Shown piece after piece: positions 3 through 4,138 of a stretch of DNA of 38,416 nucleotides. Position numbers and translations under genes: made by a program. How positions within the stretch are numbered: position 1 is the stretch's first letter; each line of letters starts with the position of its first letter. Where the stretch lies: contig JANQLH010000250.1 of assembly GCA_028280735.1 (NCBI GenBank), positions 1 through 38,416 on the forward strand, in the 5' to 3' direction. The DNA comes from SAR324 cluster bacterium. Its GTDB lineage: Bacteria > SAR324 > XYD2-FULL-50-16. The notes below the pieces were generated by a model. It was not told the DNA's origin, did no database searches, and saw only the letters and a program-made list of their open reading frames with translations.

Positions 3-98
3 AAACACCTAACCCTACACAGCATCCGCCACACCAAAGCTACACACCTGTTAGAGGCCGGGGCAGGAATCGGGTCGGACCAGCGCGGTGGGCGGTAA
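3..98 (+). pseudogene. C-terminal fragment of a tyrosine recombinase/integrase, truncated at the first repeat
   Basis: Frame 3 reads KHLTLHSIRHTKATHLLEAGAGIGSDQRGGR*. HSIRHTKATHLLEAG matches the HxxR...H/T...LLxxG box of tyrosine recombinases. The downstream LGH...Y region is absent, and the reading frame runs into repeat R1 and stops at 96-98. The 5' end lies outside the window. Confidence 0.7.
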
Positions 99-212
99 AC
101 AGGGAAAAAGTACCTCAAAATTGTACCTCTTGAGGTCTTAGAACCACCTTTTTACCCCCAAAAACAGCCTTCTAAGAAATCCAAACCCGTTAATATTTGA
201 TTCCTCATTCTG
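66..212 (+). repeat. Long array repeat R1, imperfect inverted repeat
   Basis: Shares GGAATCGGGTCGGACCAGCGCGGTGGGCGGTAAACAGGG...TTAGAACCACCTTTTTACCCCCAAAAACAGCCTTCTAAGAAATCC...CCCGTT with R4 and R6. Nested stems: 68-79/180-191, 90-103/147-159, 113-118/130-135. Confidence 0.85.
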
Positions 213-276
213 TTTGATTTGATTAAAAACCCCATATGATTGGCGGAGTTGAGGAATGAGGAATCGAATAGACGCT

Positions 277-372
277 GGAATCGGGTCGGACCAGCGCGGT
301 GGGAAAACTGGAATCGTAAATCGGTGGACAGCATACCTATTTCCATATTTTTTAATCCTCCCTCTGGTGTTG
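277..372 (+). repeat. Array repeat R1b, hybrid of long-type head and short-type tail
   Basis: The head GGAATCGGGTCGGACCAGCGCGGTG is identical to R1. The tail (ATACCTATTTCCATATTTTTTAATCCTCCCTCTG) matches R3 (ACACCTATTTCCATATTTTGATCCTCCTCTG). Confidence 0.75.
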
Positions 373-512
373 AATCAGAAAATTTTGAAATCTATCACAT
401 TTATCCTGCTAAATTGCAATAGCTCACTCAGAAGAAAATCAGTATAACGGGTAAGGAATTTAGTGGAGGCTCGGCTCCAGGAAACTTCTAATATATTTGA
501 AAGGAAAAGATA

Positions 513-953
513 ATGACGAAATCTGAAAAATATGAAGCATCTATCAGCTATTTTACAGATGGAAATGGATCTTGGACCAAGGTTATAGGCGGAAAGCAAT
601 GTTCCTGTGAAAGTATAATATATGGTGAATGTCAGGGGATGTTAGGCCATATGGGCTGTCACTGGAACTACCAACCGGATGGGAGTTATGCGTACTGGAA
701 AAACGATTTAGATCCATCTGCGATTGAAGAAAACTGTGCCTGTGGATCCATCCCTCCTGAGAACGATTCATACATAAATCCTTCATCGAAAGCTAAAGAA
801 AATTATCGTGAATTCTACAATACAGAAGTGGTTGATGATAAGAACTTAATAGAAAAATTAGAACAAGGAATCCCCCCAGAGGAAAACGCATCTATTGATA
901 GACCATGTACAGTGGACGAGATTAGGGAATTAAAACTATTGTGGAGAATATAA
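513..953 (+). CDS. Cys-rich hypothetical cassette protein (146 aa)
   Basis: ORF preceded by AAGGAAAAG. Contains QCSCESIIYGECQGMLGHMGCHW...ENCACGS. Located between repeats. No family recognised. Confidence 0.6.
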   Translation: MTKSEKYEASISYFTDGNGSWTKVIGGKQCSCESIIYGECQGMLGHMGCHWNYQPDGSYAYWKNDLDPSAIEENCACGSIPPENDSYINPSSKAKENYREFYNTEVVDDKNLIEKLEQGIPPEENASIDRPCTVDEIRELKLLWRI

Positions 954-1107
954 TTTTCCAACAAGTGCAGACACCCCACAACTCCTTCAGCTTCGTTAGC
1001 TAGGCATACTACACTCTGAGTAAAGAGACCATCGCGAAATCAAGTCGGATCAATTTAAATGACTGTATACAAATGGAAAATATTGAAAAGTCGGCCATTT
1101 TAAAACA

Positions 1108-1162
1108 TTAGAGCCCAATTTTACCCCCAAAAACAACCTTCTAAGAATTTGATCCCTTCTGC
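1108..1162 (+). repeat. Array repeat R2, 3' half only
   Basis: TTAGAGCCCAATTTTACCCCCAAAAACAACCTTCTAAGAATTTGATCCCTTCTG matches the right arm of R1 and R4. Confidence 0.7.
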
Positions 1163-1216
1163 AATCATCATTATTAAGATTTAGAAAACCGATCTCCCTC
1201 TTCTATTGATTTGCTA

Positions 1217-1250
1217 TTGTCTCACATTTTTTATTCTGGTACAATTGTAC
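1217..1250 (+). promoter_or_regulatory. Promoter and operator palindrome of the PIN toxin-antitoxin pair
   Basis: TTGTCT (1217-1222), 17-nt spacer, TACAAT (1240-1245). The perfect palindrome GTACAATTGTAC (1239-1250) overlaps the -10. Confidence 0.55.
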
Positions 1251-1266
1251 AAAAAGGGAGAATATC

Positions 1267-1659
1267 ATGAGAATTGTGATTGATACATCTGCAATAATTG
1301 CTGTAATAACCAACGAGCCCCATAAAGATAAAATTGTTAATGCTACACGAGGTGCTGATTTAATAGCTCCTTCATCAGTACATTGGGAAATTGCTAATGC
1401 ATTTTCAGCAATGTTCAAACAGAACAGAATCAGTCTTGCTGACTCAATGAAATGCATTGATGAATATAAAAACATACCTATCCGATTTATGGAGATAGAC
1501 TTAAAAAAAGCATTGGATCTGTCGTTTAACTACAACATTTATGCTTATGACGCTTTCCTCCTATCATGTAGTCTAAGCAATGATGCACCTCTTTTGACAT
1601 TGGATCTAAAATTGTCTGAGAAGGCAAAAGCATCAAATGCAAAAATTTTGGAGATATAA
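1267..1659 (+). CDS. PIN-domain toxin (VapC-like)
   Basis: MRIVIDTSAIIAVITNEP...WEIANAF...YDAFLLSCSLSNDAPLLTLDLKL has the PIN acidic residues (D6, E42, YDA). RBS GGGAG upstream. Confidence 0.85.
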   Translation: MRIVIDTSAIIAVITNEPHKDKIVNATRGADLIAPSSVHWEIANAFSAMFKQNRISLADSMKCIDEYKNIPIRFMEIDLKKALDLSFNYNIYAYDAFLLSCSLSNDAPLLTLDLKLSEKAKASNAKILEI

Positions 1660-1660
1660 T

Positions 1661-1882
1661 ATGCAAGTTTATACTTTTTCCGAGGCAAGACAAAAACTGG
1701 CTTCTATTTTAGAACAAGCTTCAAAAGACGGTGAGGTAAGAATCAAACGAAGAGATGGTAGAAGTTATATTTTGAGACCTGAAACCAGTGCCCAATCTCC
1801 CCTTGATATCAAAGGTGTTAACGTAGGATTATCTGCATCTGAAATTGTTGACTTTGTAAGAGAAGGGCGAGATAGAACATAA
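1661..1882 (+). CDS. Phd/YefM-like antitoxin partner of the PIN toxin
   Basis: MQVYTFSEARQKLASILEQASKDGEVRIKRRDGRSYILRPE is a Phd/YefM-type N-terminus. Its ATG lies one nt after the toxin stop codon. Confidence 0.8.
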   Translation: MQVYTFSEARQKLASILEQASKDGEVRIKRRDGRSYILRPETSAQSPLDIKGVNVGLSASEIVDFVREGRDRT

Positions 1883-1896
1883 TCGTCCAAATTGAA

Positions 1897-1952
1897 ATCG
1901 GATTGAAAAATCAGGTGACAACACCTATTTCCATATTTTGATCCTCCTCTGT
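1897..1952 (+). repeat. Short array repeat R3, attC-like hairpin
   Basis: GGATTGAAAAAT (1900-1911) pairs with ATATTTTGATCC (1933-1944), 11 of 12 positions including G.U. The inner stem AGGTG-acaa-CACCT is at 1913-1926. Confidence 0.6.
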
Positions 1953-1992
1953 ATTGCAGATTGTTGACTATCACTGATCAAGGTGGATTGTA

Positions 1993-2253
1993 ATGGAAGA
2001 CTGGAATTACCAAAGAGAACCAACGAGCCCTGGAGAAATTCTCCAGGAAGAATTTTTAGTTCCCCTGGGACTGACACAAAAACAATGTGCAGAGCATCTG
2101 GGGGTTGATGTGAAAGTGATCAACCGTATCATAAACGGCAAGTCGTCAGTTACACCAAAGATGGCGGTTTTATTGGGTTCAGCTTTTGATGTATCGGCTG
2201 AGTTTTGGTTAAATGCCCAGCTAGCAGCTGATCTTTGGAAGATAAGAAATTAA
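1993..2253 (+). CDS. HigA-family XRE antitoxin, orphan
   Basis: PTSPGEILQEEFLVPLGLTQKQCAEHLGVDVKVINRIINGKSSVTPKMAVLLGSAFDVSAEFWLNAQLAADLW is HigA-like. No HigB toxin lies between R3 and this ORF. Confidence 0.85.
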   Translation: MEDWNYQREPTSPGEILQEEFLVPLGLTQKQCAEHLGVDVKVINRIINGKSSVTPKMAVLLGSAFDVSAEFWLNAQLAADLWKIRN

Positions 2254-2337
2254 AAACTTAATTTACCGGGAAGTATTGCCAAACATGTCTTAACTTGGGA
2301 GACAAGACCTACTGAACTATAACTGATAAACACCCGC

Positions 2338-2526
2338 GGGAATCGGGGGTGGCGGGGAATCGGGTCGGACCAGCGCGGTGAGCGGTAAACCAGGGAATCG
2401 GGTCGGACCAGCGCGGTGAGCGGTAAACAGAGAAAAAGTCCCTCAAAATTGTACCTTTTGAGGTCTTAGAACCACCTTTTTACCCCCAAAAACAGCCTTC
2501 TAAAAAATCCAGCCTGTCGTAGTTCG
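2338..2526 (+). repeat. Long array repeat R4 with a tandemly duplicated head
   Basis: 38-bp unit GGGAATCGGGTCGGACCAGCGCGGTGAGCGGTAAACCA at 2355-2392, repeated from 2393, with a third remnant at 2338-2347. Apical stem CCTCAAAA (2441-2448)/TTTTGAGG (2456-2463). Confidence 0.85.
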
Positions 2527-2612
2527 GATTACGATATCTTAAATCGGACCTTTCCTTGCCGCAAAAGGCGGAAAAAGTACATAGAAACGAACCAACCATT
2601 ATAAACTCAAGC

Positions 2613-2641
2613 TTGACAGATACGTCATGTTGACGTATTTT
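2613..2641 (+). promoter_or_regulatory. Promoter and operator of the RelE-like/XRE module
   Basis: TTGACA (2613-2618), 17-nt spacer, TATTTT (2636-2641). Inverted repeat ATACGTCA-tgt-TGACGTAT at 2620-2638. Confidence 0.65.
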
Positions 2642-2646
2642 TTCAT

Positions 2647-2922
2647 ATGACAACGGTATTATTAACCAAGGTTCAGAAGAAATTAAAAAGACTCCCCCTG
2701 CATATTGTCAGAAACCTGCAGAGGTGGGCAATTCAGATTGAAACAATAGGAATCGATGAAGTGAGAAAGATCCCAGGTTTTCACGATGAATCCTTGAAGG
2801 GAAAAAGGGCAGGCCAGCGATCAATCAGGCTTTCAAAATCGTATAGAGCCATTTACATTGAATATAAGGAAAACAAGGTGGATATCGTTAGCGTTGAAGA
2901 GGTAAACAAACATGAATACTAA
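2647..2922 (+). CDS. RelE/HigB-superfamily toxin
   Basis: VQKKLKRLPLHIVRNLQRWAIQIETIGIDEVRKIPGFHDESLKGKRAGQRSIRLSKSYRAIYIEYKENKVDIVSVEEVNKHEY has the RelE fold pattern and the RLSKSYRAIY motif. Confidence 0.85.
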   Translation: MTTVLLTKVQKKLKRLPLHIVRNLQRWAIQIETIGIDEVRKIPGFHDESLKGKRAGQRSIRLSKSYRAIYIEYKENKVDIVSVEEVNKHEY

Positions 2923-3211
2923 GCATTACACAACAAGCGATCTTCAAAAAGATTTTGGTCCTTTAACATTCGGGTTATCGCTAGCCAGTTACCGGAAAGG
3001 TGAAGAACTAAGCCAAAAGGAGTTTGCTAAAATCCTGGGGATTTCACCGCAAAGTCTTTGTGACATCGAGAAAGAGCGCAGGATTCCAACACCTAGTAGA
3101 GCGGCTAAAATTGCACGTAGGTTAAAAGAACCGGAAGCTTTCTGGATTCAACTTGCTCTTCAGGATTTACTTAGAAAAGAAAGCATCGATCTTGATGTTT
3201 CGGTTAGTTAA
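2912..3211 (+). CDS. XRE-family antitoxin partner
   Basis: LASYRKGEELSQKEFAKILGISPQSLCDIEKERRIPTPSRAAKIARRL is a helix-turn-helix. Overlaps the 3' end of the toxin by 11 nt. Confidence 0.85.
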   Translation: MNTKHYTTSDLQKDFGPLTFGLSLASYRKGEELSQKEFAKILGISPQSLCDIEKERRIPTPSRAAKIARRLKEPEAFWIQLALQDLLRKESIDLDVSVS

Positions 3212-3230
3212 CTCAAGAGGTCAGTCCATG

Positions 3231-3362
3231 GGAAATTAGGTTGGACCAGCACATAAAGGCTGTGAACAGTGGAAAATTCCCTGAAAATAAGCCCTTTTGA
3301 AGCTTTAGAACCGCTTTTTTACACCCGAAAACAGCCTTCTAAGAAATCCAGCCTGTTATATC
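3231..3362 (+). repeat. Long array repeat R5, divergent copy
   Basis: AGGTTGGACC...TTTAGAACCGCTTTTTTACACCCGAAAACAGCCTTCTAAGAAATCCAGCCTGTTATA. Outer stem AGGTTGGA (3238-3245)/TCCAGCCT (3347-3354). Confidence 0.8.
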
Positions 3363-3550
3363 TTTATCCTCCCAGTGAAAACGATTTCTACAAAGAAGTA
3401 GCCAAATCCTACCGAGACCAAGTTATAAAGCTGAAAAGAGAAAAAAACAGAACTCGATTAACCGTGAAAGAAGAGATCCGGCTTTTATGAAATGCTAGTT
3501 AAACCAAGTGAATACCGTTTCTAGTTCTTTGTCATGATCATTGATGGGAT

Positions 3551-3567
3551 GTAATCCATTGGATTAC
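3551..3567 (+). promoter_or_regulatory. Operator-like inverted repeat upstream of the degraded HigBA module
   Basis: GTAATCC-att-GGATTAC, perfect 7-bp arms, just upstream of the toxin ATG at 3577. Confidence 0.45.
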
Positions 3568-3576
3568 TATTTACTT

Positions 3577-3763
3577 ATGCAAACAATCGTTGAACTTCCT
3601 GAGTTTATAAAGAAATCAGAAAAATTACTCACGGAAACTGAAAAGAGATATAGTAAACTACCTCGCGGCTCACCCCTCGGCAGGCGCTATAATACAAGGC
3701 ACTGGTGGAATTCGAAAATTACGATGGTCTGCAAGAGGGAAAGGTAAAAGCGGTGGTGCATGA
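3577..3763 (+). pseudogene. HigB/RelE-like toxin, frameshifted and missing its C-terminus
   Basis: Frame 1 reads MQTIVELPEFIKKSEKLLTETEKR. After a shift near 3645-3650, frame 2 reads IVNYLAAHPSAGAIIQGTGGIRKLRWSARGKGKSGGA and then TGA (3761-3763). The usual RVIYY... tail is absent. Confidence 0.8.
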
Positions 3764-3962
3764 ATTCGGGCCTATAGATGTGAAAAATATCCGCACTAAA
3801 ATCGGAATGACTCAAATTGAGTTCGCTTCCAATTTTGGAATTAGCGTAAGTACGCTTCGCCATTGGGAAAGAGGAGACAGAAAACCACATGGTCCGGCTC
3901 TTGTTCTGCTGAACGTTGTAGCGAAAGAACCACAGGCGGTTTTAAAAGCTCTAAGCGATTAA
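3705..3962 (+). CDS. HigA-type XRE antitoxin with a deletion-altered N-terminus
   Basis: FGPIDVKNIRTKIGMTQIEFASNFGISVSTLRHWERGDRKPHGPALVLLNVVAKEPQAVLKAL. The upstream residues of this ORF are out-of-frame toxin sequence. Confidence 0.75.
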   Translation: MEFENYDGLQEGKVKAVVHEFGPIDVKNIRTKIGMTQIEFASNFGISVSTLRHWERGDRKPHGPALVLLNVVAKEPQAVLKALSD

Positions 3963-3988
3963 ACAAAAGCAGGTACAAGCGAAAAAGG

Positions 3989-4138
3989 GGATATCGGGTC
4001 GGACCAGCGGATCAGCGCGGTGGGCGGTAAACAGGGAAAAACTCTCTAAATCAAGGCCCTTATAAGGCCTTAGAACCACTTTTTTGACCCCAAATCCAGC
4101 TTTCTAAGAAATCCAAACCCGTTATACTTGATTCCTCC
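3989..4138 (+). repeat. Long array repeat R6
   Basis: GGATATCGGGTCGGACCAGCG...GCGCGGTGGGCGGTAAACAGGG...CTAAGAAATCCAAACCCGTTATACTTGATTCCTCCG. Apical stem AAGGCC (4053-4058)/GGCCTT (4066-4071). Confidence 0.85.

Follow-up and report, generated by a model that had tools for sequence, protein, structure and literature searches.

Toxin-antitoxin-associated repeats on a SAR324 contig are probably solitary ends of a TIRtron-like transposon

The window, i.e. the whole stretch of DNA that was analysed, is the entire 38,416-nt contig C453 of a metagenome-assembled genome of a SAR324 cluster bacterium (511 contigs, 88% complete). An initial annotation had placed a set of repeats at 66-4138; these do exist and were found in the window both by repeat analysis and by a DNA search of the genome. 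The window contains four full copies, one degenerate copy and two end fragments, which alternate with small toxin-antitoxin genes. In the following list the repeats are described as the putative transposon ends that we take them to be.

66..195, + strand: R1, full putative solitary transposon end, with the terminus GGGTCGGACC at 72-81 and a subterminal hairpin at 136-177
277..303, + strand: R2, outermost 27 nt of a putative end, nothing more
513..953, + strand: ORF of 146 aa between ends, no Pfam match
1036..1150, + strand: R3, degenerate putative end, hairpin still discernible at ~1108-1146
1267-1659, + strand: PIN toxin (PF01850, 8.6e-12)
~1676-1882, + strand: Phd/YefM-like antitoxin (PF02604, 6.3e-6, below its cut-off)
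1993..2253, + strand: HigA/VapI-like HTH antitoxin (PF01381, 2.7e-10)
2356..2393, + strand: partial putative end before R4, outer 38 nt of an end, a tandem duplication directly 5' of R4 (repeat family D2)
2394..2517, + strand: R4, full putative end, hairpin at 2464-2505
2647-2922, + strand: HigB-like toxin (PF05015, 3.2e-4, below its cut-off)
2912-3211, + strand: HTH antitoxin, HigA-like (PF01381, 1e-11)
3233..3357, + strand: R5, full putative end, diverged, hairpin at 3303-3344
3705..3962, + strand: MqsA-like HTH antitoxin (PF01381, 2.3e-9; PF15731, 9.9e-7, just below its cut-off)
3987..4126, + strand: R6, full putative end with a short internal duplication close to the terminus, hairpin at 4068-4109, start approximate

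The repeat is about 120-140 nt long and runs from GGAATCGGGTCGGACC to about TTCTAAGAAATCCA..GTTATAT, the window-type end being GCGGTAAACAG. A DNA search of the window's own genome with the repeat gave 23 matches, and the family is dispersed, with about 20 copies on 13 contigs. In the same search contig C10 was found to carry an array of six full copies, and single copies lie on C441, C358, C30, C227, C273, C352, C312, C444 and others; the copy at L011 5243 retains the inner part only. The sequence TTTAATCCTCCCTCTGT, the usual 3' neighbour of the repeat, also occurs alone at L011 1396, 6285 and 7237 and at position 357 of the window, and C10 has seven matches to it in all compared with 0.14 expected. 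These lone occurrences are perhaps inner remnants of further elements. At window positions 3-95 (+ strand), a tyrosine recombinase is truncated by the contig start to a C-terminal piece (KHLTLHSIRHTKATHLLEAGAGI), which continues directly into R1; no second close copy of this piece was found in the own genome. In a genus relative, too, a family end is closely preceded by a broken tyrosine recombinase gene (L037 ~80-1000, G001 C42).

From apparent compensatory substitutions between copies, the initial annotation had proposed a conserved fold of outer, middle and apical stems under selection as a folded single-stranded form. All of the strings quoted in its support are present in the sequence. 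Across 17 aligned full copies, 78.2% of the cells of the outer and middle stems taken together are paired versus 78.4% in shuffles, and double-change pairs, the signature of compensation, number 4 versus 3.8 expected in shuffles. Folding energies of the whole repeat are close to those of dinucleotide shuffles (mean z of -0.09 for RNA and -0.04 for DNA on the + strand, and -0.34 for both on the - strand), with individually low values for R1 and R5 only, the pair most compared in the annotation. In the alignment, the apical stem of R4 (CCTCAAAA/TTTTGAGG) pairs columns 48-55 with 64-71, and the R6 stem (AAGGCC/GGCCTT) pairs columns 56-61 with 70-75. These columns are not homologous, so the two stems are no instance of compensation within a single stem. 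The apical AAGC/GCTT of R5 is 4 nt long and occurs everywhere. The segment TTTTTACC is contested between the middle stem and a better-kept hairpin in columns 73-113, and RNAalifold of the whole repeat yields weak pairing outside this 3' hairpin. By the refutation criterion that the initial annotation had itself set, folding energies on a par with shuffled sequence, the full three-stem fold fails, and the proposal is not supported.

The hairpin on the 3' side of the repeat (CTTAGAA..CTTTTT..AAAAA..TTCTAAG) is paired in 93.6% of cells across columns 73-113 of the own copies and in 86% of cells in the wider family (32 hairpins). Its energy in these 32 family members has a mean z of -1.9 (RNA, + strand), and of -1.25 to -1.6 in other settings. 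Five double-change pairs are found in the wider family, e.g. U-A to C-G, and the covariation score is equalled by 14 of 500 shuffles; this is modest support, as the covariation can partly stem from relatedness. The hairpin is kept across phyla. A scan for its pattern in one genome per species (84,980 species) matched only one contig of the same genus and one Brocadiaceae contig. Of the earlier proposal, selection on a folded single-stranded form thus stays plausible for one subterminal hairpin, together with the palindromic terminus, and falls away for the three-stem fold.

Seven Y1-type transposase matches are present in the own genome. The transposase on contig C300 scores 44 bits with PF01797 (cut-off 23) and 64.5 bits with NF047646, under the cut-off of 80, and the protein carries HIH and YIELNM, the HuH motif and the catalytic tyrosine, respectively. 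The 3' end of its gene is directly adjoined by GGTCGGACC...CTTAAAACCGCTTTTTTACCCTTAAAAAGTTAGTTGTAAG, the last part of which overlaps the stop codon, and the unit at this position consists of a GGGTCGGACC terminus and the hairpin. A profile of the 18 own copies gave a full-length match to this 3' flank (E 2e-8) as well as two matches (E 2e-5) at the 3' end of the gene of the closest genus relative, a locus that had been retrieved with the protein and not with the repeat. The C300 end is similar, not identical, to the window repeats, and its contig ends within the gene, so that the 3' side alone is visible. The closest relative of the C300 transposase within the genus (G001 C18, 55% identical) has two ends on its 3' side, one of which is solitary and still has 23 codons of the transposase C terminus. 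On G001 C66 a left end of the same design precedes the start of a truncated transposase gene, and on G001 C40 and Brocadiaceae L048 there are pairs of ends in facing orientation, separated by about 260 bp, which resemble a miniature element.

Two other sources of the repeats were considered and rejected: the Y---NP transposases of the window's phylum, the flanks of which contain neither terminus nor hairpin, and plasmid records, in which transposases are only 29-31% identical. Viral contigs gave no match. A second transposase family in the own genome and relatives (L055, L050, L072 and L087) has the ends GGGGTCAGGCTTGCG, near the published motif GGGGWSAS, and these stand on both sides wherever both could be seen.

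The Brocadiaceae genome recovered by the hairpin scan encodes two transposases 38% identical to the C300 protein. At the Brocadiaceae locus L092, a near-perfect hairpin (-20 kcal/mol) lies over the stop codon, a second hairpin precedes the start, and GGGGGCNGCCC-like termini stand outside. In planctomycete relatives the transposase genes have GGGGTCGGACCAAGCTA to their left and TAGCTTGGTCCGACCCC to their right, or variants of these, and the complete element in relatives is some 1.0-1.3 kb long. For 12 of the 14 genes of this branch, the inverted termini surpass the 95% null; most of them read GGGGTCGGACCAAGCTA or nearly so. Of 11 transposases from the window's phylum that belong to another branch, 2 exceed the null, with an unrelated terminus sequence, and no hairpin of the stop-codon design was seen in that branch. 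The motif Y---NM occurs in 15 of the 16 branch members of the tree, L107 having Y---NP, and one side of a branch with support 92/83 is made up of the Y---NM members together with L107; terminus and Y---NM motif together mark one tree branch. The C300 protein falls among sequences that come from the Brocadiaceae genome's relatives, a placement that suggests horizontal transfer. Two branch members, L094 and L095, have the perfect palindrome TGTGGTGTCACCACA as terminus on both sides.

Termini are often directly flanked on their outer side by a short tandem repeat, the unit of which differs by locus: GGAATCG in the window family and TGTCATTTG, TGTCAACTGTC, TAGATGTA, AGGATTCGG or TGAGTCTTGG elsewhere. 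Such outer repeats reach p < 0.05 at 15 of 50 ends compared with 2.5 expected (units above 12 were left out of the count), where the 50 ends are not independent, several own copies sharing descent, and some were picked by motif and may be false ends. Examples beside a GGGTCGGACC terminus lie at L011 4228-4271, at L031 1335-1390 and at the right end of L096. If the transposase makes them, these outer repeats would constitute an unusual footprint left by single-strand transposition. An extended scheme, in which ends would grow one-sided tandem copies of flank plus the terminal GGGG, with a unit of 6-13 nt peculiar to each locus, and solitary right ends would move or collect toxin-antitoxin genes in an integron-like manner without an integron integrase, appears improbable to us.

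The unit at the 3' end of the C300 gene and the termini on both sides of the genes in Planctomycetes together lead us to read the repeats as solitary, non-autonomous TIRtron ends. Each repeat would be the solitary end of a small transposon with a single-tyrosine HUH transposase of the RAYT/TIRYT kind, a reading to which we assign a probability of about 0.88. In the complete element, as relatives show it, the transposase gene is enclosed by inverted termini (GGGGTCGGACCAAGCTA...), with a hairpin some 60-90 bp inwards, and the right-hand hairpin starts at the stop codon or extends across it. The window copies would represent the right end of this element and comprise its terminus, its hairpin and, it seems, a few final codons of the gene. 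By analogy with related nucleases, the transposase most likely acts on one DNA strand, where the palindromic terminus and the hairpin would be the structures recognised and where cleavage and joining would take place. Gene-less copies may have spread in trans, or may remain after gene loss, and would have accumulated in a toxin-antitoxin island; recognition as single-stranded DNA, mobilisation in trans and this origin of the array are what we infer. At the level of sequence, the comparisons establish the identity of the family, the two-ended arrangement in relatives, the conservation of the hairpin and the toxin-antitoxin context.

This context could also be read as a moving cassette system, in which an end carries the adjacent toxin-antitoxin genes and the transposase builds the array. 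The array units look cassette-like, those of C10 including genes for ParE, MazE/PIN, HigB and further PIN and BrnT-like proteins, and toxin-antitoxin genes also adjoin ends on C30, C180, C300 and in the genus relative G001. However, many of the single copies elsewhere have no toxin-antitoxin neighbour, no two places with the same end and genes in different surroundings were found, and islands of toxin-antitoxin genes form for other reasons, making such a system unlikely. Since toxin-antitoxin genes lie among the array repeats and are often absent beside single copies, we favour a reading of the array as a toxin-antitoxin island in which ends have accumulated; the array may also have a cassette-like role.

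The same alternation of VCR-like-length repeats with small toxin-antitoxin genes, in one orientation and on two contigs, recalls integron attC sites, the recombination sites of gene cassettes, here in a CALIN or sedentary integron with toxin-antitoxin cassettes. A decayed fragment resembling an integron integrase C terminus (IYTLVTKKVGRGIQSPADLL) is present on C395 (L026 3600-3815), with no family repeats nearby. Yet the core boxes R'' (RYYYAAC) and R' (GTTRRRY) occur together in 0 of 18 copies, contrary to the hint of attC sites in the initial annotation, isolated copies stand at a distance from any array, and the sequences most closely related to the repeat are found at the ends of Y1-HUH transposase genes. 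No integron integrase above the TIGR02249 cut-off was found in the own genome (88% complete); the best score, 100 of 265 bits, belongs to a recombinase on C492, which was rejected as an integron integrase as its neighbour is a reading frame for an IS91-type transposase and family repeats are missing from its surroundings. We regard the attC reading as extremely improbable. Hardly more credible is a structured RNA or transcription terminator following toxin-antitoxin operons and unrelated to mobility, for which the position of most copies 3' of genes, hairpin energies that beat shuffled sequence and minus-strand terminator-like matches at R1 and R4 could be cited. These matches rely on another hairpin and concern two copies only, a search for Rfam RNA families and tRNAs gave no match, and transposase genes of other phyla carry the conserved hairpin at either end. 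The repeats may also play a secondary part as RNA elements, much as has been suggested for REPs.

Reading the repeats as solitary transposon ends removes the false lead of a new attC-like fold and assigns a previously unannotated repeat family of a small, little-sampled phylum (52 genomes) to a transposase branch. The branch in turn gains defined ends, with palindromic inverted termini, a hairpin at each end and outer short tandem repeats.

Among known systems, attC/VCR sites share with the repeats their length, folding potential and alternation with toxin-antitoxin genes, but the repeats have no core boxes and no integrase, and their relatives differ. IS200/IS605 elements have no terminal inverted repeats. 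The branch described here resembles them in its related nuclease and in subterminal hairpins at both ends, and differs in the presence of inverted termini. Like REPs and REPINs with RAYTs (PMC3116915, PMC8266576), the repeats of this family are small, palindromic and non-autonomous and are related to RAYT gene ends, and the inverted pairs of about 260 bp on G001 C40 and Brocadiaceae L048 are REPIN-like. In contrast to these, the conserved GT[AG]G foot (GTAG/GTGG) directly 5' of the hairpin is absent in our alignments, and the repeats are about 120-140 nt instead of 20-50 nt long, number about 20 copies and are mostly single. Recognition of REPs by RAYT-related nucleases takes place on single strands (PMC8266576).

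The closest resemblance in kind is to TIRtrons, the name given by De Nocera and colleagues to RAYT-like genes within inverted repeats, some termini of which form repeat families in dimers or clusters (PMC3733652). Most TIRYTs were placed by Quentin and colleagues in subclass 2.1 of TnpA-Y1, and Y---NP is the common class 2 signature (PMC6006769), which describes the class and does not define TIRYTs. As in TIRtrons/TIRYTs, a Y1-HUH transposase is associated with inverted termini starting with GGGG (PMC3733652), the flank can overlap the 3' end of the gene, and termini are dispersed, in dimers or in clusters. Compared with the TIRtron motif GGGGWSAS, which is found in some termini only (PMC3733652), GGGGTCGG differs at the seventh base whereas GGGGTCAG (G001 C40) fits, and the branch has Y---NM in place of the published Y---NP. 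Further differences from TIRtrons are the conserved subterminal hairpin at both ends, the outer short tandem repeats and the location of ends in a toxin-antitoxin cluster. The element would be of a known kind, a TIRtron; the branch deviates from the published description at position seven of the motif and by its Y---NM.
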